The notes beneath the pieces were generated by a model. It was not told the origin of the DNA and did not search any database. It worked only from the letters and a program-made list of their open reading frames with translations. A program made the translations under genes and the position numbers. A stretch of 64,000 nt of DNA, taken from Polyangiaceae bacterium (GTDB lineage Bacteria; Myxococcota_A; Polyangia; Polyangiales; Polyangiaceae). Below, piece by piece: positions 254 through 29,820 of the stretch. Within the stretch, counting starts at the first letter, position 1; each line of letters begins with the position of its first letter. Location: the NCBI GenBank assembly GCA_023150915.1, contig JAKLKA010000020.1:1-64000 (forward strand), written 5' to 3'.

Positions 254-1555
254 TCAGAGCCCGTACACCTTCGACCGATCGCCCGCCACGCCGCGCAGCG
301 CGTCGCGCGTGTCGACCACCAGCTTGGCTTCGCGCAGCAGGCGCTCGCGATCGAGGCGCTTGTGGTCGGTCACGACCACCACGCAGTCGTAGGGCGCGAA
401 GCTCGACGCGGGATCGACGCCGGCCATCTTCAGGCCCTCTTCGTCGAAGCTGGGCACGTGCGGGTCCATGTACGTGACCTCGGCGCCGCGCCCGATCAGA
501 TCGTGCATCACGTGGAAGGCGGGGCTCTCGCGCATGTCGTCCACGTCGCGCTTGTAGGCCACGCCGTAGATCAGCACCTTCGACCCCTTCACCGCCTTGC
601 GGTGGTCGTTCAGCGCCTCGGTGACGCGCTCGACCACGTAGGCCGGCATCGAGCTGTTGATGGTGTCGGCCAGCTCGATGAAGCGCGCCTGGTACTTCAG
701 CGTGCGGAGCTTCCACGACAGGTACAGGGGATCGATGGGGATGCAGTGCCCGCCCAGGCCCGGCCCCGGATAGAAGGGCATGAAGCCGAAGGGCTTGGTG
801 GCCGCGGCGCGGATCACCTCGAAGGGGTCGAGGCCCAGCCTGCGGCTCATCATCGCCACCTCGTTCACCAGGCCGATGTTCACTGCGCGGAAGGTGTTCT
901 CGAGCAGCTTCACCATCTCGGCGGCCTGGGTGCTCGAGACGGGCACCAGGGTGTCGATGATGTTCGAGTAGAGCTCCGTGGCCACGCGCAGGCACTCGGG
1001 CGTAGCCCCGCCGATCACCTTGGGCGTGTTCCGGGTCTTGTAGACCTCGTTGCCCGGATCGACGCGCTCGGGCGAGAACGCCACGAACACGTCCTTGCCC
1101 AGGACCGCGCCCTTCTCGGTGAGACGGGGCACCACCACCTCGTCCGTCGTCCCCGGGTAGGTCGTGCTCTCGAGCACGATCAGCATGCCCGGGTGCTGGT
1201 GCTTCACGATCTCGTCGGTGGCCGCGACGATGAAGCGCATGTCCGGATCTTTGGTCTTGTTGAGCGGCGTGGGCACGCACACGATCACCGCGTCGGCCTC
1301 GGCCAGGATGGCCGGGTCCGCGGTGGCCGCGAGCCGTCGCGCCTTCACGTGGGGCGCCAGATCGGCGGTGGGGACGTCCTGGATGTAGGACTCGCCGGCG
1401 TTGAGGAGGCGGACCTTCTCGCGGTCGTAGTCCAGGCCCGTGACCCGGAAGCCTGAGCGGGCGAGCTCGGCCACCAGGGGCAGGCCGACGTAGCCGATGC
1501 CCACGACGACGACGTGGGCGGATTTCTGCGCGATCTTATCGGAAAGGGTGGCCAT
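254..1555 (-). CDS. Nucleotide sugar dehydrogenase (UDP-N-acetylglucosamine/UDP-glucose 6-dehydrogenase family, WbpA-like)
   Basis: Rossmann motif VVVVGIGYVGLPLVAELARSGFRVTGLD; VCVPTPLNKTKDPD; GLGGHCIPIDPLYLSWK catalytic Cys motif. Confidence 0.92.
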   Translation of the reverse strand: MATLSDKIAQKSAHVVVVGIGYVGLPLVAELARSGFRVTGLDYDREKVRLLNAGESYIQDVPTADLAPHVKARRLAATADPAILAEADAVIVCVPTPLNKTKDPDMRFIVAATDEIVKHQHPGMLIVLESTTYPGTTDEVVVPRLTEKGAVLGKDVFVAFSPERVDPGNEVYKTRNTPKVIGGATPECLRVATELYSNIIDTLVPVSSTQAAEMVKLLENTFRAVNIGLVNEVAMMSRRLGLDPFEVIRAAATKPFGFMPFYPGPGLGGHCIPIDPLYLSWKLRTLKYQARFIELADTINSSMPAYVVERVTEALNDHRKAVKGSKVLIYGVAYKRDVDDMRESPAFHVMHDLIGRGAEVTYMDPHVPSFDEEGLKMAGVDPASSFAPYDCVVVVTDHKRLDRERLLREAKLVVDTRDALRGVAGDRSKVYGL

Positions 1556-1766: not shown

Positions 1767-2480
1767 TTGAGGTTTCGGCATCTCGTTTCCAAGCTCTGCC
1801 CAACCGGCACGGCGCTTCCGGTCCTCGCAGGGCCGCTGCGCGGCGCGAAGTGGATCGTGGGAGCCGCAAGCGGAGCTGGAAAAGGGATGTCCGTCTTGGT
1901 CAACCAAGCCGAACCGAGGCTGCTCGCCGTGGCGAGGAGCTGGTTGACGCCTGCGAGCGTGTCGCTCGACTTGGGAGCCAACGTCGGCCTATATACGCTG
2001 CTTTTCGCGCGATACGGCGCGCACGTGCACGCCTTCGAGCCGGTCCCTCGTAACATCGCCTACCTGTTCCGCCACTGCGAGCTGAACCGCGCGAGCAACG
2101 TCACCATCTTGCCTTGGGCTGTTTCGGATCACCTCGACCTGGCCAGATTCCAGATCGGGCGCTCCAACGCTCTGGGGCGCCTGAGCGAAGCCGGCAACCT
2201 CCCCGTTGTCTCGATGAGCCTCGACAAGTACGCGAGGGCGATGGACCGCACGCCTAACCTGCTGAAGATCGACGTGGAGGGTGCCGAGGAGCGCGTGCTC
2301 GAAGGTGGAAGGTACCTACTGTATGAGGCTCGTCCGAAGATCCTGCTCTCGGTTCACGGGCCAGCGGCGCGGGCAGCGTGCCAGCGCCTGCTGGGAGAAC
2401 ATGGCTATCGCCTAACGCCCCTCGACAACCCCAACGCCGGCGAGGCGAAAAACTTCGCCTGCTTGCCAAGCTCAAGCTGA
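1767..2480 (+). CDS. FkbM family methyltransferase
   Basis: SLDLGANVGLYTLLFARYGAHVHAFEPVPRN and LLKIDVEGAEERVLEGG motifs typical of FkbM methyltransferases. Confidence 0.9.
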   Translation: MRFRHLVSKLCPTGTALPVLAGPLRGAKWIVGAASGAGKGMSVLVNQAEPRLLAVARSWLTPASVSLDLGANVGLYTLLFARYGAHVHAFEPVPRNIAYLFRHCELNRASNVTILPWAVSDHLDLARFQIGRSNALGRLSEAGNLPVVSMSLDKYARAMDRTPNLLKIDVEGAEERVLEGGRYLLYEARPKILLSVHGPAARAACQRLLGEHGYRLTPLDNPNAGEAKNFACLPSSS

Positions 2481-2488
2481 GGCGACTC

Positions 2489-2656
2489 TCAGGAGTCCGG
2501 TCCGCCGCCAGCCAGATCAGACTCGCCTCCACCCCCGTGAGTGAGGTCTCGCAGCGAGCCCAACTCCACCAGTCGAGGCGCCTCGTAGCCGCGGGGCTCA
2601 GGCGTCCGCTCGGGGTTCTGGTCGATCGGCTTGTTGGGCTCATGCCCATGTGACAT
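2489..2656 (-). CDS. Lasso-peptide-type RiPP precursor (55 aa): leader MSHGHEPNKPIDQNPERTPEPRGYEAPRLVELGSLRDLTH, predicted core GGGGESDLAGGGPDS
   Basis: Translated by hand from the minus strand; below the ORF-track cutoff. Leader motif Y-x2-P-x-L-x3-G-x5-T (YEAPRLVELGSLRDLT) with Thr at penultimate leader position, core starting with Gly and Asp at core position 7. SD-like AGGGAG 7 nt upstream of ATG. Start overlaps the 3' end of the cyclase gene; stop TGA is tca at 2489-2491 on the + strand. Confidence 0.88.
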   Translation of the reverse strand: MSHGHEPNKPIDQNPERTPEPRGYEAPRLVELGSLRDLTHGGGGESDLAGGGPDS

Positions 2657-4337
2657 GGCGGGACTCCCTCTGCACCCCTCTACAGGTGCGGACGGCAGAG
2701 ATGATATTCAACAGAACTCTCAGGCGCAACGCATCTCTTGCGGCAAGCGCAGCCGGGGCGCGTTCGAGCCAGTCATCTCTCACGATTCCGGCTAGCTCCG
2801 GCGGCAGAGGCTCGCTCCAGTCCAGGTCTTGGGCAGGGTCGTGCCAGACGTGTTTGGGGGTCTCGGAGCAATGGCGGGGGACGACCCCCCGGAACGCCGC
2901 TCGAACCAAGCGTTTAGGCTCCGCATTCGTCAGCTCGAGGGGGTCGCAGCGGTACGCGAGCTCGATGACCTCACGGTTGAAGAAGGGGAAATAGCGCCGA
3001 ATCCCCAGGCCGCTGCACACCTCCCAGTTCTGCACCGTCGCCACGCCGGTGTGCAGGACTCGGTGGGTCAGGTAGGGGCGGTCGGATCGCGACTTGGCGA
3101 AGGCGGCTTGCTCGGCTCGTGCTTGGTCTCGGTACTCCGCTGCCGCGGCCCTCGCCAGGAAGCTCGGCGGCGTCAGGCTGCTCAACAGCGGCGCCCGGCG
3201 GAATGTGCGCCGCAGTCGGAAGCTGGACCAGAACCGAATCGCACCCGTCCGCGGGAGCGCCTTCGGGTACGCAAGAGCGGCCGAGCGTGGACTTGCGGAC
3301 GATGCCCAATCGAACAGGGCGGGGCCTCCCCCCAAGTGCTCGTCACAGCCTTCTCCCCCGAAGAGGCAGCCCAGCGGCTCAGCCTGAGCGATCGCGGGCA
3401 GCAGGCACAAGACCGGGTGCGCCACGGTCCAAACAACCACCGGAGCACCGCGGAGATACTCCATCCGGCGCGACGGGGAGATCTCCCTCTCCCAGGTCCG
3501 GCGCGCATGCGGTCCAATCTCCGCGCGCAGCCTGGCGAGGCGCGTGCTGACCCAGTCCAGCGCCGCGCCGGGAGGCGGCACCAGTGTCAGCGTGCTGAAG
3601 TCGAGCCCCAACGGACCCGCGGTCAGGGAGGCGAGGACGGACGAGTCGAAACCTCCGCTGAGGGCGAGGAGGTTCTTCCCGGAAGCGTCGAGCGTTCGCT
3701 GCAGGCCGTCGAGGACAACCCTCCGCAGCTCAGCGGCGTGATCCTCGAAGGTGACGTTGGCGGACTCCCTCGACGGGGGCACCCACCATTTCGTGGATCT
3801 CAGCGCGCCGCCCTTCGTCCACCGCAACACGCTGCCGCTCGCGAGCAGCTCCACTGAGGCGAGTGGGGTTCGCCCCGCGGGGGGCATGAATGCCAGTCTG
3901 CTCAGGACGGCGAGGGCGAGAGGGTCCAATCGCGGCTCTTCCGGCATGAACCGAGCGAGATCGGTCAGCCGGCTCGAGACACCGAGCATGGCGCGGCCGT
4001 GCCAGACGAACAACGGCGATGTTCCAACCGCGGCCCTCACGAAGTGCGCTTCGTTCGGTGATCGAAACCACGCGAACGTGAAGTCGCCCGGCAACGCGCG
4101 CAGCGAGCCCTCCAGCGTTCGCTGCCCCAGCTCGGACGTCGTAACGCCTGCCAATCGCTCCGCGCCCTCGACGAAGAAGACGGAGTCGCGGCGCGCGCGC
4201 AGTGAGCCGCCAGAGTGCGCGACGACCCAGCTATCGCCACGCCTCTCGACGTGATCGAAGACCCCTGAGGCGAGGAGCTTCGCTTCGAGCTCGCCGAGCG
4301 CCGCTGAATCGGGGGAGTGGAAGGCCAGGAGTCTCAT
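2640..4337 (-). CDS. Asparagine synthetase-like lasso cyclase (C protein)
   Basis: LLALSGGFDSSVLASL PP-loop (SGGxDS) ATP-binding motif. N-terminal domain starts MRLLAFHS without the catalytic Cys2 of glutamine-hydrolysing AsnB, as in lasso cyclases. Start chosen at internal Met giving an ATGA overlap with the kinase gene. Confidence 0.85.
   Translation of the reverse strand: MRLLAFHSPDSAALGELEAKLLASGVFDHVERRGDSWVVAHSGGSLRARRDSVFFVEGAERLAGVTTSELGQRTLEGSLRALPGDFTFAWFRSPNEAHFVRAAVGTSPLFVWHGRAMLGVSSRLTDLARFMPEEPRLDPLALAVLSRLAFMPPAGRTPLASVELLASGSVLRWTKGGALRSTKWWVPPSRESANVTFEDHAAELRRVVLDGLQRTLDASGKNLLALSGGFDSSVLASLTAGPLGLDFSTLTLVPPPGAALDWVSTRLARLRAEIGPHARRTWEREISPSRRMEYLRGAPVVVWTVAHPVLCLLPAIAQAEPLGCLFGGEGCDEHLGGGPALFDWASSASPRSAALAYPKALPRTGAIRFWSSFRLRRTFRRAPLLSSLTPPSFLARAAAAEYRDQARAEQAAFAKSRSDRPYLTHRVLHTGVATVQNWEVCSGLGIRRYFPFFNREVIELAYRCDPLELTNAEPKRLVRAAFRGVVPRHCSETPKHVWHDPAQDLDWSEPLPPELAGIVRDDWLERAPAALAARDALRLRVLLNIISAVRTCRGVQRESRHVTWA
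2664..2669 (-). promoter_or_regulatory. Shine-Dalgarno-like ribosome binding site (AGGGAG) for the RiPP precursor
   Basis: Minus strand reads ...AGGGAGTCCCGCC-ATG; 7-nt spacer to the start codon at 2656. Confidence 0.6.
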
Positions 4338-5230
4338 CGGCCTCGCAACACGTCGAGCAGCGCGTGCGACGCGGATTCGTCGAAGGCGAGGCGGGGTAGA
4401 TCGGCACGGTAGACTGGAATCGATCGCGCCAGCGATGCGAGCTGAGCGTGAAGGCGCGAAAGGACCTCGCGGTCCGTCCACTCCGGAACCCGTGACGCCG
4501 CCAACAGCGACCGGACCGCTTCGACTCCACGCAGCCTCAGAAGCGCGGGCGTTCGTCTGCCCACATCGAACCTCGGGATCACGATCGTATCAAGGGGGTC
4601 AGCGGTCGCGTTCCCACCGGGTGGCGACAGTGCCAACCGGCCGTCGTGCGTCTCCTCCGCATCCCAGGTCGGCAGAGCCTCGGCGATCTCCCGCACGCGC
4701 TCTCGAAGCCGGAGGCGCGCGGTTCCAGTGAAACAACGTAGACCAGTCTGATCGATGGCGACGCGGAGCACGTCGTCCGCGACCAGCCGAGCTCCGCTCA
4801 GGCACATCAGGGCTGCGAGTGTGGTCTTGCCAGCGCCAGAGGCACCGACGAAAGCCACAGTTCGGCCATCCAGAGAAACGGCGCTCGCGTGGAGGGGTAG
4901 GTCCCCTCGGGCGTTCAGTACGACCGAGAGCGCGAGTCCCTCGACCACGGCGCTGATTTGCTCGGTAGTCGGAGTGCGCTCGAACACGTCGATCCGGTCG
5001 GGTCCCACGGCGAAGGTCGCAACGTCCGGCACATCGACCGTGAACCCGGTGGGCGCCCGATGGATGGTGAAGCCCGATGAACCCGACCGACCTCCCACGC
5101 TGTCGGACTGCGACACGGGTTCGACCGCGGTCTTCGCGACGCGAACGTCGATCCGACTGGCGGACGGCTCCCAACCCGCGAGCGCGTAGTCCGACAGAAT
5201 CTCGAGCCCGTGCAGCGCGACGCGATGCAT
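4334..5230 (-). CDS. HPr kinase/phosphorylase-like protein (lasso-peptide kinase type)
   Basis: VAFVGASGAGKTTLAALM P-loop preceded by LPLHASAVSLDGRTVAFVGASGAGK, followed by GARLVADDVL, the characteristic layout of HprK-like kinases in RiPP/EPS loci. Confidence 0.88.
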   Translation of the reverse strand: MHRVALHGLEILSDYALAGWEPSASRIDVRVAKTAVEPVSQSDSVGGRSGSSGFTIHRAPTGFTVDVPDVATFAVGPDRIDVFERTPTTEQISAVVEGLALSVVLNARGDLPLHASAVSLDGRTVAFVGASGAGKTTLAALMCLSGARLVADDVLRVAIDQTGLRCFTGTARLRLRERVREIAEALPTWDAEETHDGRLALSPPGGNATADPLDTIVIPRFDVGRRTPALLRLRGVEAVRSLLAASRVPEWTDREVLSRLHAQLASLARSIPVYRADLPRLAFDESASHALLDVLRGR

Positions 5231-5248: not shown

Positions 5249-5617
5249 TCAGCTCAGTGCTTGGTACTCGCCATGGCTCGGCTCGCCGACAGGTGTCCCC
5301 TCGATCTCGATCCAGGCGTGCGCGACGATTCCATCACCTCGCCGTCGCACGCCGATTCGAAGCACGGGACCGTGCTCTCGGAGCAATGCCCCGAGCACGA
5401 GAGACCGCCGCAAGCAGCGCCCCCGCCGTGGCCAGACGCCGAGCACGCGGTCGGTTGCTGCGACGACCCCGTGGACCTCGCGGGATGGCGGGCCGCTCGA
5501 TGCCGTCGGCGTCGTGCCCAGCCCAAGCCACCGAGACAGCCGATTCACTGACACCACGCGCAACCCCGTCTCTACCAGGACGCCAAGGCAGGCAGCTTGC
5601 AGGTGCTCGAACATCAC
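5249..5617 (-). CDS. Lasso peptide biosynthesis B2 protein (transglutaminase-like leader peptidase)
   Basis: RRGRCLRRSLVLGALLREHGPVLRIGVRRRGDGIVAHAWIEIEGTPVG: Cys (RCLRRSL) and His (AHAWIE) motifs of B2 proteases. Confidence 0.9.
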   Translation of the reverse strand: MMFEHLQAACLGVLVETGLRVVSVNRLSRWLGLGTTPTASSGPPSREVHGVVAATDRVLGVWPRRGRCLRRSLVLGALLREHGPVLRIGVRRRGDGIVAHAWIEIEGTPVGEPSHGEYQALS

Positions 5618-9796: not shown

Positions 9797-10770
9797 CAAG
9801 TCGAAGAGCGGTCAGCTCCAGCGGGCCCCGTCCGGAGCTGACCGCGGCTTGGAACCTCGCGGTAGAGGCCGAGCTTGCCTTCGTTCTCGGCGCATTTGCG
9901 CGAGAACGCCTCGAAGTGGTGGTGCTGAAGGGGACGCCGCTGCTGCGGCGTCTCGGCGAGCCGCTCGTGGAGCGGACGCTCGCAGACAACGACCTGCTCG
10001 TGCGCGGCTCTTCACTGATTGCCGCCGAGAGGATTCTCGAGAGGCTCGGCTATCAGTCCACACGGCCACTGAGCCTGAGCGTTCGTGCCGGCTCCGGGCA
10101 GCACTCCATGGTGCGCCAAACGCCCGTAGTGCGCCACGTCGTCGACTTGCACTGGGCAGCATTCCACGCACCGTTCAGGGGAGTCAGTCCCGAGCTCGTC
10201 TGGGCTCACACCGAGGTGAGCTCGGTGTGCCAGCAAGAGGCCCGAGTCCTGGACCGCCCGATGACGCTGCTTCACACCGCTGCCCACTTCGTCTGGCACT
10301 CGATGGGCCAGCTCCGACTGTTGCGCACGCTGGGCCGTGCCTGGGATGCGTGGGGGCACGAGCTCGACCCGGCGGAGCTCAGGCACCTCGCGCTTCGAAC
10401 CGGCACGTTGCCGTCTCTCGAGTACTCGCTTCGTGCTGCACAAGAGCTCGGGCTGGCGCGTGGGGCGCTCCGTTTCACCACGCTTCGGGCCCGGACGGTC
10501 CGGGAGCTCCTACCCCCGGCAGAGTTGCTCCTGAAGCGACCCGTCCCGGACTACGAGCGCATGGCCGTGGCGCTGATCCTGGTATCGACGGAGCGTGCCC
10601 TCATCCATGCGCTGCGCTTGGCACTTCCCAGCATCCCGGAGGCCGAAATCCTGGCGGGAGCTTCCGGCCCCCAAGCAGTGGCCCGGACCTACCTGCTCCG
10701 CCCGTTCTACGCCGCCCGAAGGCTGAGAGCGTATCGCCGTCACTTGGCCCGCGAAGTCGACGACGCATAG
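9793..10770 (+). CDS. Nucleotidyltransferase family protein (NTP_transf_5-like)
   Basis: LEVVVLKGTPLLRRLGEPLVERTLADNDLLVRGSS, HHxx-rich C-terminal half (HTAAHFVWHSMGQLRLL); GTG start overlaps preceding stop (GTGA). Confidence 0.78.
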   Translation: MTSRRAVSSSGPRPELTAAWNLAVEAELAFVLGAFARERLEVVVLKGTPLLRRLGEPLVERTLADNDLLVRGSSLIAAERILERLGYQSTRPLSLSVRAGSGQHSMVRQTPVVRHVVDLHWAAFHAPFRGVSPELVWAHTEVSSVCQQEARVLDRPMTLLHTAAHFVWHSMGQLRLLRTLGRAWDAWGHELDPAELRHLALRTGTLPSLEYSLRAAQELGLARGALRFTTLRARTVRELLPPAELLLKRPVPDYERMAVALILVSTERALIHALRLALPSIPEAEILAGASGPQAVARTYLLRPFYAARRLRAYRRHLAREVDDA

Positions 10771-12005
10771 CCATCCGGAGGGCTTGGACCGTCGGTCAGG
10801 GCGGCGTAAAGCGACCGGAGCGAGGCGCGGAGGCCCAGCCAGCTGGTCACGAGCCGCTCCCGAGCCGCCCGTCCCATCGCTGCCAGCTCCTCGTCGTTTA
10901 GCGCAGCGGTGCGCTCGAGAGCGAGCGTGAGCCCGTCGACGCTGCCTGCTTCGTGTAGGAAGCCGACCGTCGAGTCCACGAGTGCGCGAAACAGGGGGAT
11001 ATCCGATGCGACTACAGGCTTCCGCGCGAGGAAGGCCATCAGCGCCACCGAGCTGTGGGCGTACCACCGCACGGAGTAGGGCAGCACTACCACATGACTG
11101 GATGCCAAGGCCGCGCAGAACTCCTCCGGCGTGAGATAGCGGTCCAAGATCACTGAGTTCCGGAGCGACTTGGCGCGCTGGCGATCGAAGCCGGGCGTTG
11201 GTTTGCCGGCGATGAGCAGCCCGCAGCGCGTGCCGGCCGGGAACTCGGCTTTCTCCCATGCATCAAGCAGCGTGTCGATGCCCTTCTCTTTGCGGAGAAC
11301 ACCGAGCAACAGAAAGACTCGGTCGTAGCGCTGGAGCTTCGCCCCGAGGGCCGACCGGTGCTCGCGGAGCTTCTTGGCGTCGAGCACCGGCTCGACATCC
11401 GCCCACGGAAACGGGTGGACACAGATGGTCTCGCACGGGACGCCCATGCGACGCTGCAGCTCCTCACGGACGTGGTCGAAGTGGACGATCAAGCGGTCGG
11501 CGAGCTCGAACACGCGGCGACGCCTCGCGGAAGAGCTGCGCGGCCCCTCGAAGACGACGTCGTGCGCCGTGACGAGCAGAGTCTTGCCGAGGGCCTTGAC
11601 CGCGAGCGCGAACAGCCAGGTGGGAAGCTCGTCGTCGATGACGCTCAGGTTGACAACGTCGATGCGTTCCCGACGGATGTACGGGACCAGCCGGACGTAG
11701 CCGAGCGCTAGCTCGGCGTAGCGTATCGGCAGACGGAGCCCGGAAAGCTCGAGGAATCGCAGGTATGGGTTCCGGTCCGTGTTCTCTGTCAGCGGGAAGA
11801 AGACCCTCAGCACCTTCTCCCCGGCCGGCGGCCTGAACGTGAAGTAGCGGTTTGTCGCGAGCGTCAGGTCCACCGACTCGACCGCCCGTAGCGCCTCTGC
11901 GATCCCCGCCAGATAGGCTCCGGCCACCCCCGCAGTTCCATGGTAGACGTACAGCACCCGGAGCGGTTCGCGAGGCCCGGGTGCTCGCGACCCGATGTCG
12001 TTCAT
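10740..12005 (-). CDS. Glycosyltransferase family 4 protein
   Basis: VFLLLGVLRKEKGIDTLLDAWEKA...LLIAGKP and HVVVLPYSVRWYAHSSVALMAFLARKPVVASDIPLFRALVD donor-binding motifs. Confidence 0.87.
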   Translation of the reverse strand: MNDIGSRAPGPREPLRVLYVYHGTAGVAGAYLAGIAEALRAVESVDLTLATNRYFTFRPPAGEKVLRVFFPLTENTDRNPYLRFLELSGLRLPIRYAELALGYVRLVPYIRRERIDVVNLSVIDDELPTWLFALAVKALGKTLLVTAHDVVFEGPRSSSARRRRVFELADRLIVHFDHVREELQRRMGVPCETICVHPFPWADVEPVLDAKKLREHRSALGAKLQRYDRVFLLLGVLRKEKGIDTLLDAWEKAEFPAGTRCGLLIAGKPTPGFDRQRAKSLRNSVILDRYLTPEEFCAALASSHVVVLPYSVRWYAHSSVALMAFLARKPVVASDIPLFRALVDSTVGFLHEAGSVDGLTLALERTAALNDEELAAMGRAARERLVTSWLGLRASLRSLYAALTDGPSPPDGYASSTSRAK

Positions 12006-12035
12006 CGGGCCCCGAGATGACGTCGAGTGCGACGA

Positions 12036-13145
12036 TCAGGCCTTGCCATAGAACTGGCGAACGGTCGCAATCACGTAGTCGAGCTCGTCGTTCGTGATTT
12101 CCACGTTCATCGGCAGCGAGCAGACCTCTCGGCTCAACGCTTCCGTCTCCGGGAAGCCCCGGTCCTCCAGTCCGAGCGCGGCGTGCTTGTAGTACGGCTT
12201 CCGGAACTGCGTGAGCACTTCGACGCCGCTTTGCTTCAAGTGCTCGGAGAAGGCGTTGCCCTGCTTCGAGCGAACAGTGTAGTTCTGGTACACGTGAGTG
12301 AAACCCGGCCGATCATAGTGAGGCAGCAAGAGATCTGGCAGGTTCGACAGGTTCGTTCGATAGCGCTCTGCAATCTCTTGCCGACGAACGATCCAGCGCG
12401 GTAGGTGCCGGAGCTTCACGTCAAGGAACGCAGCCTGCAGATTGTCCAACAGCGCCGTGAAGCCATGCCCGTGGTACTCCCCCGTCTCGCGGTCCTCGCC
12501 GTTGTAACGCATTCGGCTCACCCAGCGGGCGACCTCAGGGTCGTCGGTCGTGATGGCTCCACCGTCACCGTAGCCACCGAGGATCTTGAACGGATAGAAA
12601 CTCCAACATCCGGTCTTGCCCCAGGCACCGGCGCCCTTGCCGTTGATGCTCGCTCCGAGCGACTGGCAAGCGTCTTCCACGACCACCAGGCGGTGCTTCT
12701 CTGCCAGCGCCACGATCCTGGGCATGTCTGCCATCCAGCCGGAGAGGTGCACCGGGAGAAGCGCCTTGGTGCGCGCGGTGATCGCGGGCTCGATCAGGTC
12801 CACGTCGATGTTGAAGTCCTTGCCAACGTCGACGAGGACAGGCGTTGCACCCACGTTCACGATCGCCGAGCAGCTCGCGACGAACGTGTGCGCCGGCACG
12901 ATGACCTCGTCTCCCGGTCCAATTCCGGCTGCCCGCAGCGACAGGTGCAGGGCGTCGTATCCGCTGTTGAGCCCGACCGCGAAGCGCGTCCCGACGAACT
13001 TCGCGAGGTTCTCCTCGAAGCTTCGCAGCTGGCCCCTCATGATCAGGTCACCGCGAGACATCACGTCGCGATACGCTGCGTCGATCTCGTCTTTGATCAG
13101 CTCGTAGTTCCTGACTGCATTGACAAACGGGACTTTGTAACCCAT
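12036..13145 (-). CDS. DegT/DnrJ/EryC1/StrS family sugar aminotransferase
   Basis: GLNSGYDALHLSLRAAGIGPGDEVIVPAHTFVAS; VVVEDACQSLGASINGKGAGAWGKTGCWSFYPFKILGGYGDGGAI PLP-Lys motif. Confidence 0.93.
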   Translation of the reverse strand: MGYKVPFVNAVRNYELIKDEIDAAYRDVMSRGDLIMRGQLRSFEENLAKFVGTRFAVGLNSGYDALHLSLRAAGIGPGDEVIVPAHTFVASCSAIVNVGATPVLVDVGKDFNIDVDLIEPAITARTKALLPVHLSGWMADMPRIVALAEKHRLVVVEDACQSLGASINGKGAGAWGKTGCWSFYPFKILGGYGDGGAITTDDPEVARWVSRMRYNGEDRETGEYHGHGFTALLDNLQAAFLDVKLRHLPRWIVRRQEIAERYRTNLSNLPDLLLPHYDRPGFTHVYQNYTVRSKQGNAFSEHLKQSGVEVLTQFRKPYYKHAALGLEDRGFPETEALSREVCSLPMNVEITNDELDYVIATVRQFYGKA

Positions 13146-13162
13146 GGCGAATCCTCGTGGCC

Positions 13163-13711
13163 CTAGCCGGGTGACTCTCGAGTGGGAACGAAGGCGCCGA
13201 GCAGCCGGAGCCCGAGCCTTCGGGTGCGATGTCCGATGCGGTACCGAGAAAGCCCGGCCTTCTCAGCGGCACGGATAGAAGCCAGATTCGCCTCCTCCGT
13301 GAGGTACCAAAGTCTCCCGCAGGTAGTCCTCTCGAGCGCCGCGACTTTCCGGATCGCTTCCGATGCGATGCCTCGCCCGCGGTAATCCGGGTCCGTCCAC
13401 GTGTCACCGATTTGAAGGTCGTCCACGGCCATGAAGGGAAATCGGAACCACCCTGGTGTCACCACGGAGCGGTGAATGGGCTTGTCGCCATCGTACACGG
13501 TGAGCACGCCGTAGCGTCGGTTGCGGAAGACATGGAGCTCGTGGAATATCCACCACACGGCGAGGGGCGGAGTGAACATGCGGCGTGGCCAGGGCCTCCG
13601 AAGCGAAGGCCGCCAGAGTGCCACTCGGAGATCGCCGCCACCCTCCGGAGGCGCAACCTCCGAGGGCGCTGCGAAGTAGAAACGGCAAACGTGGTCGTCT
13701 GAGCTTGCCAT
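13163..13711 (-). CDS. GNAT family N-acetyltransferase
   Basis: DLQIGDTWTDPDYRGRGIASEAIRKVAAL...LWYLTEEANLASIRAAEKAGL acetyl-CoA binding motif. Confidence 0.85.
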   Translation of the reverse strand: MASSDDHVCRFYFAAPSEVAPPEGGGDLRVALWRPSLRRPWPRRMFTPPLAVWWIFHELHVFRNRRYGVLTVYDGDKPIHRSVVTPGWFRFPFMAVDDLQIGDTWTDPDYRGRGIASEAIRKVAALERTTCGRLWYLTEEANLASIRAAEKAGLSRYRIGHRTRRLGLRLLGAFVPTRESPG

Positions 13712-13722
13712 TCCCGAGCAAT

Positions 13723-14832
13723 CTAGCCTTGCGGCGGTGCCGTCGACAATCGGCTATCTTCAGCGGGCTCTGCTCTGCGTTTCGCCACGGCACGCCGCCA
13801 GCCCAGCCAGAGCTGAATGGTCCACGCCCCCAAACTGGCCAGCAACGCATAGAAGCCGACTGCGACAAGTCGACGTTTCCAAACTTCGGAGGTGGCCGGC
13901 CCATCGACGATCGCGACGTAGCGCGGTCTGACGCCGCCGAGATGACTGATGAGGCGTGCCGCCGGCTTGGGCAGCAGCCGCAGCCGGAGGTTCAGTTCGG
14001 TCGCCTCGAAGACGTTGTTGCCCCAGGGGAACGCGAGCATGGCGAGCCCCTCGGGTGAGTAATAGGGAGTGCGAGAAAGCTGAACTTGGCGTCCGTCCAT
14101 CTCAAAAGCGTTCTTCTCGACGGTGGCTCGGTTCACCGCTGCGAGTGCCGCTTCCTGGAAGAACTCGAGCTGGAAGGGATGGTACTGGAGTACCGCATCG
14201 CGGAAGGCCAGAGCCGACAATGGCACTCCATCTTCGCCGCGCACGATGAATCCGAACTGCGCATCAATGAAGACCCACTTCTTGAGTCCTCGGTCGTAGA
14301 ATTCGTTGAAGCCGTGGCTGTTGCTGGTGACTTCGCGCGCCGGCATTCCCACGGCGGTGGCAAGCGCGACGAACACCTGCGTAAAGTCTGAACAACAGCC
14401 GCGGGCTCCATTGGCCAGGTCGCGGGCCTTTTCGGCGAGGTCGTCCGTGAATCCACAACCCGTGCGGGGCACTGCAGGGTGCCGGGCCACTAGTCGCGCG
14501 AGCCCCTTGGCTCGCTCAGTGTCGTCGCCGAGCGTTCTCAAGCGCGCAAGCGAGCCAGCTCCAAGTGCGGCATCAATCTGGTGCACCGCTCGAGGCGACT
14601 CGGCTCGGTCAACCCGGAACCCTGAGGTCGAAAGAGCCGGATAGTCCGCGTATACGGCGCCTGGGTCAGACGTGTAATCCGTGAAGATCGCGTCCCGGAC
14701 AGCGACATACGCAATCTTGTTCCCTAGGTAACCCGCCAGCAGAAGCAGGATGGCCACGAGGCATGGCGCAGCAAAGAGCCTGCCTCGGAAGCGGCGGACC
14801 CGAGGACGACCAAGCGCTGTCAATGCTTTCAT
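13723..14832 (-). CDS. Membrane protein with transglutaminase-like domain
   Basis: GARGCCSDFTQVFVALATAVGMPAREVTSNSHGFNEFYDRGLKKWVFIDAQFG gives a Cys-His-Asp transglutaminase core; N- and C-terminal TM segments. Confidence 0.82.
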   Translation of the reverse strand: MKALTALGRPRVRRFRGRLFAAPCLVAILLLLAGYLGNKIAYVAVRDAIFTDYTSDPGAVYADYPALSTSGFRVDRAESPRAVHQIDAALGAGSLARLRTLGDDTERAKGLARLVARHPAVPRTGCGFTDDLAEKARDLANGARGCCSDFTQVFVALATAVGMPAREVTSNSHGFNEFYDRGLKKWVFIDAQFGFIVRGEDGVPLSALAFRDAVLQYHPFQLEFFQEAALAAVNRATVEKNAFEMDGRQVQLSRTPYYSPEGLAMLAFPWGNNVFEATELNLRLRLLPKPAARLISHLGGVRPRYVAIVDGPATSEVWKRRLVAVGFYALLASLGAWTIQLWLGWRRAVAKRRAEPAEDSRLSTAPPQG

Positions 14833-14950
14833 GCGTTGCGTGGGCTATGGGGCGCGTTCACGGGTGGAGCGCGAGGTTAGCGCGAGCCAGTGGTGCGCAC
14901 CAGACCCGAATCAAATGGCCAGATTGCCAATCGAGCCACGCTGCGCTCGA

Positions 14951-16261
14951 ATGCGCGACGACATGCCCGGTCCGGGAAGTTCCTCTGCGTCTGGGGTAGC
15001 CCCCCTGACCATCGCTTTCGTGATGATCAGCTTCGATCCCGAGCCCGGCGCACAACATGGGCTGCCTTTGGCACGGTGGCTGATGGAGCGTGGGCACCGT
15101 GTCAAAGTGCTGACGTCTTTCCCCCAGTACCCCGCCGGGAAGACCTATCCGGGGTACCGGCAACGGTCGTTCTTCCGCGAGGTGATGCAAGGCGTTCCGG
15201 TTCTGCGCGTGCCGATCTACCCGAGTCACGACACCTCTGCGCTCCGGAGAATCGCGACTTATGGGAGCTTCGCAGCCTCGGCGACCTTCATCGGCGCGCC
15301 CCTGGTGGGTCCTGCAGACGTGGTCTTTCTCTACGATCCACCACCCACCACCGGGGTGCCGGCGCTGGCGCTGAGTCTCCTCCGGCGTGCTCCGGTGGTC
15401 CATCACATCGCGGACATGTGGCCCGAGACGGTCACTGAGTCTGGAATGCTGCGGAGTGAGCTCGCCAGGTCGGTCGCGCATGCGAGCATCGGTGCTTACT
15501 GCAAGATGCTCTACTCCCACGCCCAGCACGTCTCGGTGCTCTCGCCCGGGTTCAAGCGGCTGCTCGTCGAGCGCGGCGTGCCCGCGCAGAAGGTGTCGGT
15601 CATCTACAACTGGGCGGATGACGCCTTCCGGCCGCTGCCCAAAGACGCCGAGTATGCTCGCGCGCTCGGGGTGCAGGGGGGATTCAACGTTCTCTACGCC
15701 GGCAACGTTGGCCCGTTGCAGAACATCGAAGTTGTGGTTCGCGCCGCGGCGTTGATCAAATCCCATTCCGACATCCAGGTCCACGTCGTCGGAACGGGGC
15801 CGCTGCTCGACCGGGTGAAAGCCGTTGCGAAGGAGGTTGGTGCGGTGAACGTCAACTTCGTCCCGCGGCAACCGTTTGGCGACATGCCCCGAATCCAGGC
15901 GCTCGCCGACGTCCTCCTGGTGCATCTCAAGGATGTGCCCTTTCTGCGCGCGACGATTCCCAGCAAGACCCAGGTTTCGATGGCGTGTGGCAGGGCAGTT
16001 CTGATGGCGGCGCGCGGGGATGCTCCTGACCTGATCCTCAGGGCTGGCGCAGGGTCCGCATGCGAGCCGGATAACCCCAACGCGTTGGCAGCCGAAATGC
16101 TGAGGTTGCACTCGCTTCCGAGACCCGAGCTGGAAGCGATGGGGCGCAACGGCAGACGCTACTACGAGGACCACCTGAGCCTGGACGCTTCAGCTCGGGC
16201 GATGGAGTCGCTGTTCTGTGAAGCTGCCCGCTCCGGGCGCCGCGCTGGAAAGCTCGCCTAG
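14951..16261 (+). CDS. Glycosyltransferase family 4 protein (WbuB-like)
   Basis: FDPEPGAQHGLPLARWLMERGHRVKVLTSFPQYPAGKTYPGY...VVHHIADMWPETV...VLYAGNVGPLQNIEVVVRAAALI. Start placed at internal Met. Confidence 0.88.
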   Translation: MRDDMPGPGSSSASGVAPLTIAFVMISFDPEPGAQHGLPLARWLMERGHRVKVLTSFPQYPAGKTYPGYRQRSFFREVMQGVPVLRVPIYPSHDTSALRRIATYGSFAASATFIGAPLVGPADVVFLYDPPPTTGVPALALSLLRRAPVVHHIADMWPETVTESGMLRSELARSVAHASIGAYCKMLYSHAQHVSVLSPGFKRLLVERGVPAQKVSVIYNWADDAFRPLPKDAEYARALGVQGGFNVLYAGNVGPLQNIEVVVRAAALIKSHSDIQVHVVGTGPLLDRVKAVAKEVGAVNVNFVPRQPFGDMPRIQALADVLLVHLKDVPFLRATIPSKTQVSMACGRAVLMAARGDAPDLILRAGAGSACEPDNPNALAAEMLRLHSLPRPELEAMGRNGRRYYEDHLSLDASARAMESLFCEAARSGRRAGKLA

Positions 16262-17250
16262 AGGGCCCACTTCTTCTTGAGCGCGTTTGTCGCCTCAGCG
16301 CGTTCCAGTGCAGTGAGCCGGTGTGAGAAGACCACGAACTCGGAGACGCCGAATGCCCCATGCTCGACGTTGAGCGGATCGTGACAAAGATGGCCGGCGC
16401 CCAGGAGCGTTGCGAGCCCCGAGCTTCCGGTGAGGCTCTGCTCGAACACCCCGTTGCGATACAGCGCGCGGTCGCCCATTGTCGATACTGCGAGTTCCAG
16501 TAGCATGGGGTTCCCATCGGGCATCGGCGCCCCTTGCAGCACGGGCGTGGGGGTAGCCGTGCCCTGGTACACGAGGAGAGTTCCGCCGAGGGTGCCCCAC
16601 CAAGTCGAGGTGGCCCCGACTGGTGGGAGCACGCTACGGTTGCTCAAGAGGACCTGCTGAGTCGCTGCGCCGGGGTGCTTGTAGACGACGAACAGGATCG
16701 AGTATTGGTCGGCGAGCTTCGCAGACTGACCGAATACGAGCGCGTCATCGAGGCCATCGCAGTGCACCGCAGGCCGGCCGTTGTTGAGGGTTAGCAACGG
16801 GCGCTTGGTGCCCGACGCTGTCGCGAGCGCCGCCCCGCACTTGCTGGCCCAGGAGTCGACGTAGGGTCCCGCGGACTTCAAGGTGGACGGATCCGCGGCG
16901 TCGAGCCAGACGACGCAGTCTGGAGAGGTCGCAGGGTTCCAAGCGGGGGCTCCGTCTGTCGCATCCGCTTCTGGCGAGTCCGCGGGAGCGTCGATCGCGT
17001 CCATGGCATCGTCGGCGTCACCTGCGGCATCCTGGTCTCCGGCTGCATCGCTCGGTGCACCGCCAAGCGACCCTGCCCAACCCCCGCCGCCGCCCGATCC
17101 CCCAAACGGTGCGCCAGAGACCCCAGCGGTCCCCCCCTGCACGGTCTTGCCAGCACCCGGCGCAGCCCCGTCCTCCTCCAGCGCGCACGCGAGCAGCACA
17201 CACGAGGCCGCCCACAGCGCCGACGCGCGGAACGGAAGCATGCTCCGCAT
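16258..17250 (-). CDS. Secreted lipoprotein with LamG/concanavalin-like domain
   Basis: Lipobox ASCVLLACALEEDG; C-terminal NPATSPDCVVWLDAADPSTL...YRNGVFEQSLTGSSGLATLLGAGHL...FGVSEFVVFSHRLTALERAEATNALKKKW typical of bacterial LamG-like sandwich proteins. Confidence 0.7.
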   Translation of the reverse strand: MRSMLPFRASALWAASCVLLACALEEDGAAPGAGKTVQGGTAGVSGAPFGGSGGGGGWAGSLGGAPSDAAGDQDAAGDADDAMDAIDAPADSPEADATDGAPAWNPATSPDCVVWLDAADPSTLKSAGPYVDSWASKCGAALATASGTKRPLLTLNNGRPAVHCDGLDDALVFGQSAKLADQYSILFVVYKHPGAATQQVLLSNRSVLPPVGATSTWWGTLGGTLLVYQGTATPTPVLQGAPMPDGNPMLLELAVSTMGDRALYRNGVFEQSLTGSSGLATLLGAGHLCHDPLNVEHGAFGVSEFVVFSHRLTALERAEATNALKKKWAL

Positions 17251-17329
17251 CGTATCCCGCGTGTCGGCCAGCGCAAGCATGCGTATACGCGAGTGACAGC
17301 GCCCGTTTCGTCGGCTAAACCCGCGGTGC

Positions 17330-18517
17330 ATGGCGCTTCGCCCGAACCCCCTGCTCGACGCAGTCGTCCCCCCGCCGATCCCGGAGGCGCAGCGCTGGGT
17401 CGAAGGCCGCTCGTTCCCTTCCGAGTTGCCACGACTGGACCTCGCACAGGCTGTGCCCAGCGAGCCGCCGCCTCCGGCGATGACCGACTTTCTGGCGGCG
17501 CGGTTGAGCGACCCCGCGACGGCGCGGTATTCGGCGATCTCCGGGATCCCTGAGCTGCGACGCGCGCTCGCACGCGACATCTCGGCGCGGTACTCAGGGA
17601 ACGTCTCAGCCGAACAGGTACTGATCTCGGCGGGATGCAATCAAGCGTTCTGCCTCGCCACGATGTCGCTCGCGAGCGCCGGTGACGAGATCCTCTTGCC
17701 GGTGCCGTACTACTTCAATCACCAGATGTGGCTCGACATGCTCGGCATCCGGTCCACGCACCTACCGTTCCGTGCCGATCGTGGAGGTGTACCGGATCCA
17801 GCTGACGCCAGGTCGCGGATCGGTCCCCGTACCAGAGCAATCGTCCTGGTTAGCCCGAACAACCCAACGGGAGCAATCTACCCTCCGGAGATTCTCCGCG
17901 AGTTCATGGCCCTCGCCCGCTCGGAGGGGATCGCGCTGATCCTGGACGAGACCTATCGGGACTTCACACCGCGTGATGCGCCGCCACACGGGCTGTTTGC
18001 CGACGCGGACTGGGAAGAGACCCTCGTCCACCTCTACAGCTTCTCCAAGGCCTTCGCGATCACCGGGTATCGTGTCGGCGCGGTCGTCGCGGCGGCGTCC
18101 TTCATCGCGCAGGTCGAGAAGGCGATGGATACGATCGCCATCTGCGCTCCCCGCATCGGGCAGGAAGCGGCACTCTTCGGTCTCGGGTCACTTCAGGAGT
18201 GGCGAGCGCTGAGCGCGGACAAGCTGAACCAGCGTCTCTCGGCCCTGCGGCATGCGCTCGGGTCGGTGAGCGGGTACGAGCTGGTCAGTGCAGGCGCGTA
18301 CTTCGCGTACCTGAAGCATCCATTCCGCAACCGCGACGGCACGGCTGTGGCGAAATGGCTCGCGACCGAGCAGAACATGCTCTGCCTGCCGGGGAGTATG
18401 TTCGGACCGGGACAGGAAGCCTACCTGCGGCTGGCGTTCGCGAACGTGGACGTCGAGGCCATGCCTCGGGTCGCAGAGCGGCTGACGCGCAGTCTGCGAG
18501 GTATCGGCCTCGATTGA
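17330..18517 (+). CDS. Pyridoxal phosphate-dependent aminotransferase, class I/II
   Basis: YSAISGIPELRRALARDI; VLVSPNNPTGAIYPPE; LILDETYRDF; LYSFSKAFAITGYRVGAVVA (PLP Lys). Confidence 0.92.
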   Translation: MALRPNPLLDAVVPPPIPEAQRWVEGRSFPSELPRLDLAQAVPSEPPPPAMTDFLAARLSDPATARYSAISGIPELRRALARDISARYSGNVSAEQVLISAGCNQAFCLATMSLASAGDEILLPVPYYFNHQMWLDMLGIRSTHLPFRADRGGVPDPADARSRIGPRTRAIVLVSPNNPTGAIYPPEILREFMALARSEGIALILDETYRDFTPRDAPPHGLFADADWEETLVHLYSFSKAFAITGYRVGAVVAAASFIAQVEKAMDTIAICAPRIGQEAALFGLGSLQEWRALSADKLNQRLSALRHALGSVSGYELVSAGAYFAYLKHPFRNRDGTAVAKWLATEQNMLCLPGSMFGPGQEAYLRLAFANVDVEAMPRVAERLTRSLRGIGLD

Positions 18518-18579
18518 ACTCGACAGTGCCTCACGACACCGAAGCGGTTCGCTTCGCAGGCTTGACGAGGTGGTGAGCG

Positions 18580-20727
18580 ATGCAACAGGTATTCATCAAA
18601 CGTGGCAGGGCAGTCGTTGAGCAGGTTCCGTCGCCGACCCTCGAGCCGGGCACAGTGCTGGTGCGGGTCAGTCACTCGTGCATCTCGAGCGGGACGGAGC
18701 TGAGCGGCGTTCGGAACAGCGGTGAGCCGCTCTGGAAACGTGCGCTCAAGCACCCGGAGGAGGTGCAGAAGGTCGTCACGATGGCGGCGGGTCAGGGCAT
18801 TGGCAGCACCGTGAGCGTGGTCCGTGGGCGGCTCGCCGAGGGCCTGGTGGTGGGCTATTCCGCCGCTGGCGTCGTCGAGGCCGTGAGCACGGATGTCGAC
18901 GAATTCGGTCCGGGAGACCGGGTGGCCTGCGCTGGCACCGGCCATGCGAGTCACGCGCAGATGATCCGGGTGCCAAGGAATCTCATCGCTCGCATACCGG
19001 ACGGCGTCTCGTTTGCGCACGCAAGCACCGTGGCGCTGGGCGCGATAGCTCTGCAAGGTGTCAGGCGCGCGAATCCTACCCTAGGCGAGACCTTCGTGGT
19101 CGTCGGCCTGGGTGCCTTGGGACAAATCGCCACGCAGCTCCTCAAGGCGAACGGCTGCCGCGTCATCGGAACCGACATAAATCCGGATCGGATTGCTTTG
19201 GGGCGCGCAGCGGGGCTCGATGTGGGGCTGGATCCGTCGGACGGGGATGCGCACCTGAAGGTGCTGCGCGTCACTCGCGATCTGGGTGCTGACGGTGTCA
19301 TCATCACCGCGTCGGGCGCAGGGGACGAGATCGTGTCGAGCGCCTTCCGCATGTGCCGTCGCCGCGGACGTGTGGTTCTGGTTGGAGACGTTGGCCTCGC
19401 ACTCAAGCGGCAAGACATCTACGAGAAGGAGCTGGACTTCCTGGTGTCTACATCCTACGGGCCCGGGCGCTACGACGCCGACTTCGAGGCACGTGGGCTC
19501 AAGTACCCCGTCGCCTACGTTCGCTGGACCGAGACCGAGAACATGGCCGCGTTCCTCGATCTGGTTTCGGCGGGCCGCGTGAGCTTGACCTCACTGATCG
19601 GCGGCGAGTTCCCCGTGGAGGAAGCGCAGGCGGCGTATACGGCCCTCGAAACCACGGAGCGCCCGCCGATTCTAGCGCTCCTGAAGTACGCCTCCCCACA
19701 GGAGACTGCCTTTCCTGCACGTGCCACTCCGGCAACACCGACGCGCGCGTCGCCCAAGGATCGCATCGGAGTTGCGGTAGTGGGCCCAGGTGGCTTCGCG
19801 AAGGCGGTGCACCTTCCGAACCTGACGTCGCTGAAGGACTGCTTCGACATCCGCGCCGTCGTGAGTCACAGCCCACCCAGGGCGTCTCAGGTTTCGCGGC
19901 AGTTTGGCGGCTACCCTGCGACCGATTTCGACGCGGTGTTGGAGGACCCTGGCGTCGACGCCCTGGTGGTGTGCACCAGGCACGATCTGCACGCATCGAT
20001 GGCCCTGCGGGGGCTGCGGGCGGGCAAGCACGTGCTGCTCGAGAAGCCGCTCGCACTGACGCGCGCGGAGCTTGCCGAGGTCGAGGCGTTCTACGCCGAA
20101 TCAGCACCTTCGGCGAAACCCGTTCTCCTCACGGGTTTCAATCGGCGATTCTCCCCATACGCGCAGCGCGCCCGTGCCCTCGTCTCGAGTCGCACTTCGC
20201 CGATGGTCATCACTTACCGAATGAATGCGGGGCATATTCCGCCCGAGCACTGGGTGCACGGCCTGGAGGGCGGGGGGCGAAATCTGGGTGAAGCGTGTCA
20301 CATCTACGACCTCTTCACCTACCTCACGGATGCCAGAGTCACATCGGTAGCCGTCCAGTCCATCCCGCCGCCGTCCGGACACCGTGCACGCACCGACAAC
20401 TTCATGGCGAGCCTTCGCTTCGAGGATGGATCGATTGCGTGCCTGACCTATACGTCGCTGGGGCACCGTGCGTACCCCAAGGAACACTTGGAAGTGTTCG
20501 TTGATGGACGGGTCCTGGTCATCGACGACTACCTTGAGCTTTCCGGCGAGGGTTTCAAAGACGCGCGAATGAAGAACCGCGTGCCTGACAAGGGGCACCT
20601 CGAGGAGTTGAGGCAGTTCGCGAGCGGCCTCCGCTCAGGAATCTGGCCCATACCGCTCTGGCAACAGGTCCAAGCGACGGAAATCGCGCTGGCTGTGCAG
20701 GACGAGCTGTGCGGGCGCGCGCGTTGA
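18580..20727 (+). CDS. Bi-domain oxidoreductase: zinc-type alcohol dehydrogenase fused to Gfo/Idh/MocA oxidoreductase
   Basis: N-terminal VVVGLGALGQIATQLLKANGCRVIGTDINPDR; C-terminal IGVAVVGPGGFAKAVHLPNL...DALVVCTRHDLHASMALRGLRAGKHVLLEKPLAL. Confidence 0.93.
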   Translation: MQQVFIKRGRAVVEQVPSPTLEPGTVLVRVSHSCISSGTELSGVRNSGEPLWKRALKHPEEVQKVVTMAAGQGIGSTVSVVRGRLAEGLVVGYSAAGVVEAVSTDVDEFGPGDRVACAGTGHASHAQMIRVPRNLIARIPDGVSFAHASTVALGAIALQGVRRANPTLGETFVVVGLGALGQIATQLLKANGCRVIGTDINPDRIALGRAAGLDVGLDPSDGDAHLKVLRVTRDLGADGVIITASGAGDEIVSSAFRMCRRRGRVVLVGDVGLALKRQDIYEKELDFLVSTSYGPGRYDADFEARGLKYPVAYVRWTETENMAAFLDLVSAGRVSLTSLIGGEFPVEEAQAAYTALETTERPPILALLKYASPQETAFPARATPATPTRASPKDRIGVAVVGPGGFAKAVHLPNLTSLKDCFDIRAVVSHSPPRASQVSRQFGGYPATDFDAVLEDPGVDALVVCTRHDLHASMALRGLRAGKHVLLEKPLALTRAELAEVEAFYAESAPSAKPVLLTGFNRRFSPYAQRARALVSSRTSPMVITYRMNAGHIPPEHWVHGLEGGGRNLGEACHIYDLFTYLTDARVTSVAVQSIPPPSGHRARTDNFMASLRFEDGSIACLTYTSLGHRAYPKEHLEVFVDGRVLVIDDYLELSGEGFKDARMKNRVPDKGHLEELRQFASGLRSGIWPIPLWQQVQATEIALAVQDELCGRAR

Positions 20728-20742
20728 CTCTAGAACGAACGG

Positions 20743-22788: not shown

Positions 22789-22935
22789 GCGCCTGCACCA
22801 CCCCACCGGGTGGTTCTGGTGTCCAGCCTGCGCCCGGGGCTGACAGATTCTTGACGGCACCTGCTTCGGGTTGTCTCGATTCGGACATGCCCTATGCTCG
22901 AGCGTAGGGCCCTCTTTCGCGGGAGACGAGCAGGA

Positions 22936-27821: not shown

Positions 27822-27924
27822 GGATGAGAAACGCGGGCACCTCAATTGCTCCGGACGTAATGGCTGAATTTCGTCCTGGTGGTGCGCCACTAACCGCTGC
27901 TGCAATCCCTGTCGCAGAGGAAAG

Positions 27925-29820
<1,896 letters not shown>

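Follow-up and report, generated by a model that had tools for sequence, protein, structure and literature searches.

A glycine-rich lasso-type peptide lacking a visible plug and its probable FG-GAP lipoprotein partner in a Polyangiaceae bacterium

The short gene that ends a five-gene operon of a Polyangiaceae bacterium is, judged by its sequence and that of its homologue, a real gene encoding a true lasso-type precursor. The reading we favor, with somewhat better than even confidence, is that the operon produces a lasso-type RiPP, a Gly1-Asp7 lariat phosphorylated on Ser15, which works together with a divergently encoded FG-GAP lipoprotein. The operon, the leader, the kinase motif, the conserved Asp7 and Ser15 and the conserved lipoprotein can be read directly from the DNA. 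Most work on lasso peptides concerns locked molecules that are secreted as antibiotics or serve as scaffolds. In this operon the lasso enzymes appear to yield a plug-less glycine-rich lariat, the stable genetic partner of which is a surface protein having a ligand-binding fold. The peptide itself is a variation on a known lasso type, and the lipoprotein partnership, in which radical SAM loci share, gives more cause for interest.

The operon and its precursor

The window (the whole stretch of DNA analyzed, 64,000 nucleotides) comes from an 8.0-Mb genome that we call G000; G001, G002, G009 and similar designations denote relatives, and L-numbers denote loci. The relevant features of the window are as follows.

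2489..2656, minus strand: precursor gene A, 55 aa; leader model NF033521, 31.2 bits (cut-off 19); homologue in G002
2492..2536, minus strand: predicted core GGGGESDLAGGGPDS, placed by the Thr(-2) rule; predicted Gly1-Asp7 ring; C-terminal Ser15
2537..2656, minus strand: leader with recognition motif YEAPRLVELGSLRDLTH; NF033521 match; mostly synonymous changes in codons 23-44
2640..4337, minus strand: cyclase C, asparagine-synthetase-like, 565 aa; SGGFDS pyrophosphatase loop; PF00733, E 8e-16
4334..5230, minus strand: kinase K, HPr-kinase-like, putative tailoring enzyme, 298 aa; HKDD intact; TIGR04352, E 5e-10, below its cut-off
5249..5617, minus strand: B2 leader peptidase, transglutaminase-like; NF033537, 68.8 bits (cut-off 33); PF13471
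5614..5910, minus strand: B1 PqqD-like RiPP recognition element; PF05402, 67.5 bits
5996..9796, plus strand: lipoprotein-like protein, 1266 aa, divergent from B1; PF01839, PF13517 and PF00041; conserved neighbor with a predicted fold

The operon genes run from 5910 down to 2489 in the order B1-B2-kinase-cyclase-precursor and overlap or almost abut; the precursor, which is last, begins within the final codons of the cyclase gene and overlaps its stop by 17 nt. The B1 recognition element, B2 peptidase and asparagine-synthase-type cyclase thus found in one operon are the enzyme set of class II lasso peptides, and no PqqD-domain protein other than B1 was found in the G000 genome. By profile comparison the cyclase matches structurally characterized asparagine and beta-lactam synthetases. 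Its homologues in G002, G001 and G009 are 72%, 33% and 28% identical, and SGGxDS is invariant. Distant copies of this type of cyclase are few (only four were found in the 377 genomes searched), and the single additional record from a scan of a genome collection turned out to be the G002 locus again.

Genes of polysaccharide metabolism flank the operon (window 254-1555 and 10743-25020) and encode a UDP-sugar dehydrogenase, glycosyltransferases, a DegT aminotransferase and a heparinase-like lyase. A second, full-length asparagine synthase is found at 27868-29817; its glutamine amidotransferase domain looks intact and the protein is clearly unlike the lasso cyclase. In G002 (L024, 10443-13998) the precursor is followed by two tandem UDP-sugar dehydrogenase copies, and there is no FkbM methyltransferase gene. 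The FkbM gene of the window (1767-2480, plus strand) was considered as encoding a tailoring enzyme and rejected because it is convergent with the operon and has no counterpart beside the G002 locus.

The 2489-2536 segment of the minus strand consists of the 15 core codons plus the stop codon and forms the end of the 55-codon gene. The first-pass annotation gave these coordinates exactly, together with the composition of the core: 15 residues, of which 7 are Gly, none is aromatic and just two, Leu8 and Pro13, are of notable size. The precursor protein reads MSHGHEPNKPIDQNPERTPEPRGYEAPRLVELGSLRDLTH / GGGGESDLAGGGPDS, where the slash marks the predicted cleavage site. The part before the slash is the sole match above cut-off in the G000 genome to NF033521, the NCBIfam lasso leader model, and has the YxxPxL...G motif and the Thr at -2 of class II leaders. 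The cleavage site assumed in the annotation agrees with that Thr, which is present in nearly all relatives. Cleavage one residue earlier, which would make His(-1) the first residue of an eight-residue ring and match the D8 norm, was not favored because it breaks the Thr(-2) rule. A Shine-Dalgarno-like GAGGGAG lies upstream of the gene and is kept in the G002 homologue. Across codons 23-44 the two precursor genes differ by nine synonymous changes and one non-synonymous change (binomial about 3e-5, assuming that a quarter of changes are synonymous by chance), and the DNA 3' of the precursor stop is unrelated between the window and G002.

Ring closure, threading and phosphorylation

The only close homologue of the predicted core is that of G002, GGGGGDDQVSGGPES. 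The two cores share Gly1-4, Asp7, Gly11, Gly12, Pro13 and Ser15 and differ at positions 5, 6, 8, 9, 10 and 14, so that Glu5, Ser6, Leu8 and Ala9 are among the residues replaced. Six non-synonymous differences in 15 codons, with most changes from position 5 onward being non-synonymous, are what a decaying locus might give, its core under relaxed selection and no product being made. Given that the shared residues include the putative ring and terminal positions, that all of the enzyme motifs are intact and that the leader is under purifying selection, we consider decay very improbable.

Class II lasso rings join the amine of residue 1 to an Asp or Glu at position 7, 8 or 9. Both homologues have Gly1, and Asp7 is their only acid at these positions, with none at 8 or 9. 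Closure at Glu5 was ruled out, as this residue is Gly in G002. Because Asp7 is kept and Glu5 is not, the sequences support a predicted Gly1-Asp7 macrolactam, which by our count would be a ring of 22 atoms, and this comparison of homologous cores, of the kind called for in the first-pass annotation although small (two homologues), favors the closure proposed there. In two more distant members of the cyclase subfamily the core has Glu9: GNDGPGGPEGRSGVSGG in G001 and SGPQSHTSEIPTFTNSG in G009. A survey of Myxococcota, covering 38 cores, places the ring acid at position 8 in 30, at position 9 in 5, at position 7 in 2 and unclear in 1. The two position 7 cores are those of G000 and G002, and therefore the seven-residue ring seems local to this lineage. 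The Gly1-Asp7 linkage is not new. It is already found in huascopeptin of Streptomyces huasconensis (Cortes-Albayay 2020, pmid 31931565), described in PMC7549694 and PMC12427821 as a Gly1-Asp7 lasso of 13 aa. Huascopeptin is thus a closer precedent than the xanthomonins put forward in the first-pass annotation, which close by Glu7 and of which, according to PMC4960549, the E7D variant was not produced.

Threading had been doubted for want of bulky plug residues. The missing plug is real: only 3 of 37 Myxococcota cores, those of G000, G002 and G001, all of one genus, have no F, W, Y, H, R, K, M, I, L or Q beyond ring+3, and nothing bulky in the core would hold the tail. The lack of aromatic residues, the other half of the doubt, carries less weight, since 24 of 38 Myxococcota tails have neither aromatics nor His and their absence is therefore ordinary in the phylum. 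The sister core of G001 has a predicted 9-residue ring and its tail beyond ring+3, GVSGG, also has no plug; hence the plug is absent in all three cores of the genus although ring size differs (7 vs 9). As no plug is visible in the core or in this sister core, a stable thread is doubtful. The missing plug lowers the likelihood of threading short of excluding it; a plug is usual but not strictly defining, and a seven-residue ring may need less of one. Smaller lasso rings are credited with greater thermal stability in PMC7549694. Given this property and the Gly1-Asp7 macrocycle of huascopeptin, a threaded core is possible.

The full A-B1-B2-C set, the huascopeptin precedent and the stability of small rings are all points in favor of a more conventional reading, in which a threaded lasso peptide resembling huascopeptin is secreted to serve as a signal or antibiotic and the FG-GAP protein is an incidental neighbor. 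We think this unlikely, given a core without a plug, the finding of no ABC exporter by Pfam among the neighboring genes examined (up to about 30 kb), and an FG-GAP gene that stays with the cluster despite rearrangement and swapped cyclization enzymes (see below). A stronger contender is an unthreaded branched-cyclic peptide in which the ring is closed but the tail is never locked, and the ring and phospho-Ser are what matter. It would fit the three genus cores without a long residue beyond ring+3, the constancy of the lipoprotein partner while the ring is 7 (G000 and G002) or 9 (G001) residues, and the radical SAM loci that pair this lipoprotein family with a different type of maturase. However, the Gly11-Gly12-Pro13 block is kept, as expected of a threaded segment in a tight ring, and to our knowledge the products of known lasso cyclases are threaded; we find this reading credible, although we lean against it.

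The favored reading also has the lariat phosphorylated. Motif alignment of kinase K shows all of the catalytic His, Lys, Asp and Asp residues of the paeninodin-type phospho-lasso enzymes, a motif essential in ThcoK (PMC9266682) and BsfK (PMC10368454). Both homologues have a C-terminal Ser15, as in the paeninodin type although not generally in the phylum. Since Ser15 is the only hydroxyl residue common to the core and its G002 homologue it is the best candidate site, and its phosphorylation is likely on sequence grounds. PadeK-type kinases modify the C-terminal Ser of the linear precursor, as stated in PMC9266682, whereas BsfK phosphorylates Ser3 (PMC10368454). An HPr-kinase-like gene, mostly with an intact HKDD motif, is present in 30 of 32 Myxococcota lasso-leader loci (L025-L038, L056-L072), and most cores of the kinase-bearing loci have no terminal Ser, many ending in Met, Gly, Pro or Ala. 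Hence, kinase presence was rejected as a predictor of a C-terminal Ser in the phylum and, given these cores and the Ser3 specificity of BsfK, K may act elsewhere than on Ser15. The many Myxococcota lasso-type cores that end in Met (NM, AM, KM or TM) form an apparent subfamily (L016, L019, L039, L042, L043, L046, L048, L051 and L053-L055).

The FG-GAP lipoprotein

The 1266-aa protein begins with a signal and a lipobox-like sequence (identified by eye) and has a Gly-rich linker, Ig-like and fn3 regions and a C-terminal integrin-type FG-GAP beta-propeller. Its gene adjoins B1 in the same orientation in G002 (85% identical), G001 (44%) and G009 (37%). A search with this protein alone, which made no use of the lasso genes, found homologues in 10 of the 108 genomes of the family, and in all ten (G000, G001, G002, G004, G009, G017, G018, G028, G044 and G047) the homologue lies at a lasso-type locus. 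The thinnest cases are G018, with a kinase, B1 and a short YxxP gene before the contig ends, and G004, with an Asn-synthase and a precursor before the contig ends. Gene order varies among the ten loci and therefore the link is not one of simple shared synteny. As a control for chance, PqqD-domain genes number only 1 to 3 per genome, yet one is beside the FG-GAP gene in all seven genomes checked. A short gene that follows the FG-GAP gene of G047 (L091, 7261-7500, minus strand) encodes the tail GGGAGADPDLDFVSYVSA, which has a Gly-rich start and would have Asp at position 7 if cleavage followed the usual pattern; it lacks Thr(-2).

Outside this family but within the order, genes of the FG-GAP protein family are preceded by those for K, PqqD and a radical SAM/SPASM enzyme, of which K was not detected in every locus. 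A radical SAM gene is present in 17 of the 20 FG-GAP loci read outside the family, or 17 of the 18 informative loci; the other three comprise two cut by contig ends and one (L111) in a genome that has another copy. L119, which is counted among the 17, belongs to a different order and has no detected K or PqqD, its contig ending just past the radical SAM gene. In many radical SAM loci the next gene after FG-GAP is a short one of YxxP type whose product contains Cys, as in L120 (RRPYEPPAVEDTVSFETLALSCNKQPGDFNCDFINPPPKFS) and L114 (RKRPYERPRVQETAQFETLALACAKLPGGPASCVFGGTTNS). Loci L110, L112, L114, L115, L116, L118, L119, L120, L121 and L138 make up an apparently undescribed radical SAM/SPASM RiPP family with the layout K-PqqD-rSAM-FG-GAP lipoprotein and then a short YxxP precursor; these precursors often have FETLALxC, contain Cys residues and in most cases end in Ser.

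Residues 823-1266 of the lipoprotein were modeled with a mean pLDDT of 88 and a pTM of 0.91, and the best matches of the modeled propeller are integrin alpha-subunit propellers (TM about 0.6, 13-15% identity). The predicted propeller is a ligand-binding fold, which by itself does not make the peptide its ligand. Given its conservation beside the operon, the FG-GAP lipoprotein is probably the partner of the peptide, and the data suggest that the peptide acts with it at the cell surface rather than as an ordinary secreted antibiotic. The lipoprotein, with no nearby ABC exporter found, also gives indirect support to the earlier idea of a structural or regulatory RiPP. The literature searched contained no paper that links FG-GAP proteins to RiPP loci, with the exception of the bsf cluster of Bradymonas (PMC10368454).

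From these features we infer a pathway, including its chemical steps, threading, export and peptide-lipoprotein contact. B1 would bind the YEAPRL leader, K would phosphorylate the C-terminal Ser15 on the linear precursor and B2 would cleave after the His that follows Thr(-2). The cyclase would then activate Asp7 and join it to Gly1 in a macrolactam of the smallest type known among lasso rings. This would give a small, acidic lariat rich in glycine that is either simply branched-cyclic or threaded, with a loose hold around Gly11-Gly12-Pro13, and the integrin-like propeller, on its surface stalk, might bind or display it. More broadly, and as a tentative proposal that we rate a little short of even, Myxococcota may have a two-part surface system in which a lipoprotein with an integrin-like beta-propeller displays, or binds as its ligand, a leader-guided short peptide that an HPr-like kinase phosphorylates and lasso or radical SAM enzymes modify; the kinase, recognition element and lipoprotein would be constant and the ring chemistry exchangeable. 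If the link is true, it gives a testable biological role to a set of silent myxobacterial lasso-type clusters.

Comparison with known systems

Xanthomonins I-III resemble the predicted core in having a seven-residue macrolactam, and we know of no C-terminal-Ser kinase acting on them. They are stable at 95 C for 8 h, as reported in PMC7549694. Huascopeptin differs from the window system in being actinobacterial, and the sources consulted on it mention no kinase or FG-GAP lipoprotein; it is likened to our core by its Gly1-Asp7 description alone. Paeninodin and the related phospho-lasso peptides (PadeK, ThcoK, SyanK) have in common with the operon a C-terminal Ser in the core and an HPr-kinase-like enzyme that carries the His-Lys-Asp-Asp motif. 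The operon differs from this type in its phylum, in having its precursor last and FG-GAP adjacent, and in that no exporter gene was found nearby. The radical SAM/PqqD/HprK-like loci (SynChlorMet ScmC/ScmD-like; L120, L114, L112) have the FG-GAP lipoprotein family, a PqqD element and a kinase, and their short YxxP-type precursors mostly end in Ser. They differ in that a radical SAM/SPASM maturase replaces B2 and C and that the cores have two Cys residues. The bsf cluster of Bradymonas sediminis (PMC10368454) is like the operon in its separate B1 and B2, HPr-like kinase and cyclase but differs in having Ile at -2, Ser3 phosphorylation, a core ending in Asp, and an ABC transporter and a nucleotidyltransferase. 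It is bordered by an FG-GAP repeat protein that its authors presumed not to be involved (PMC10368454) and that we liken to the window protein by description (FG-GAP repeat, cluster border). If the lipoprotein link is true, this dismissed border gene may belong to the system.
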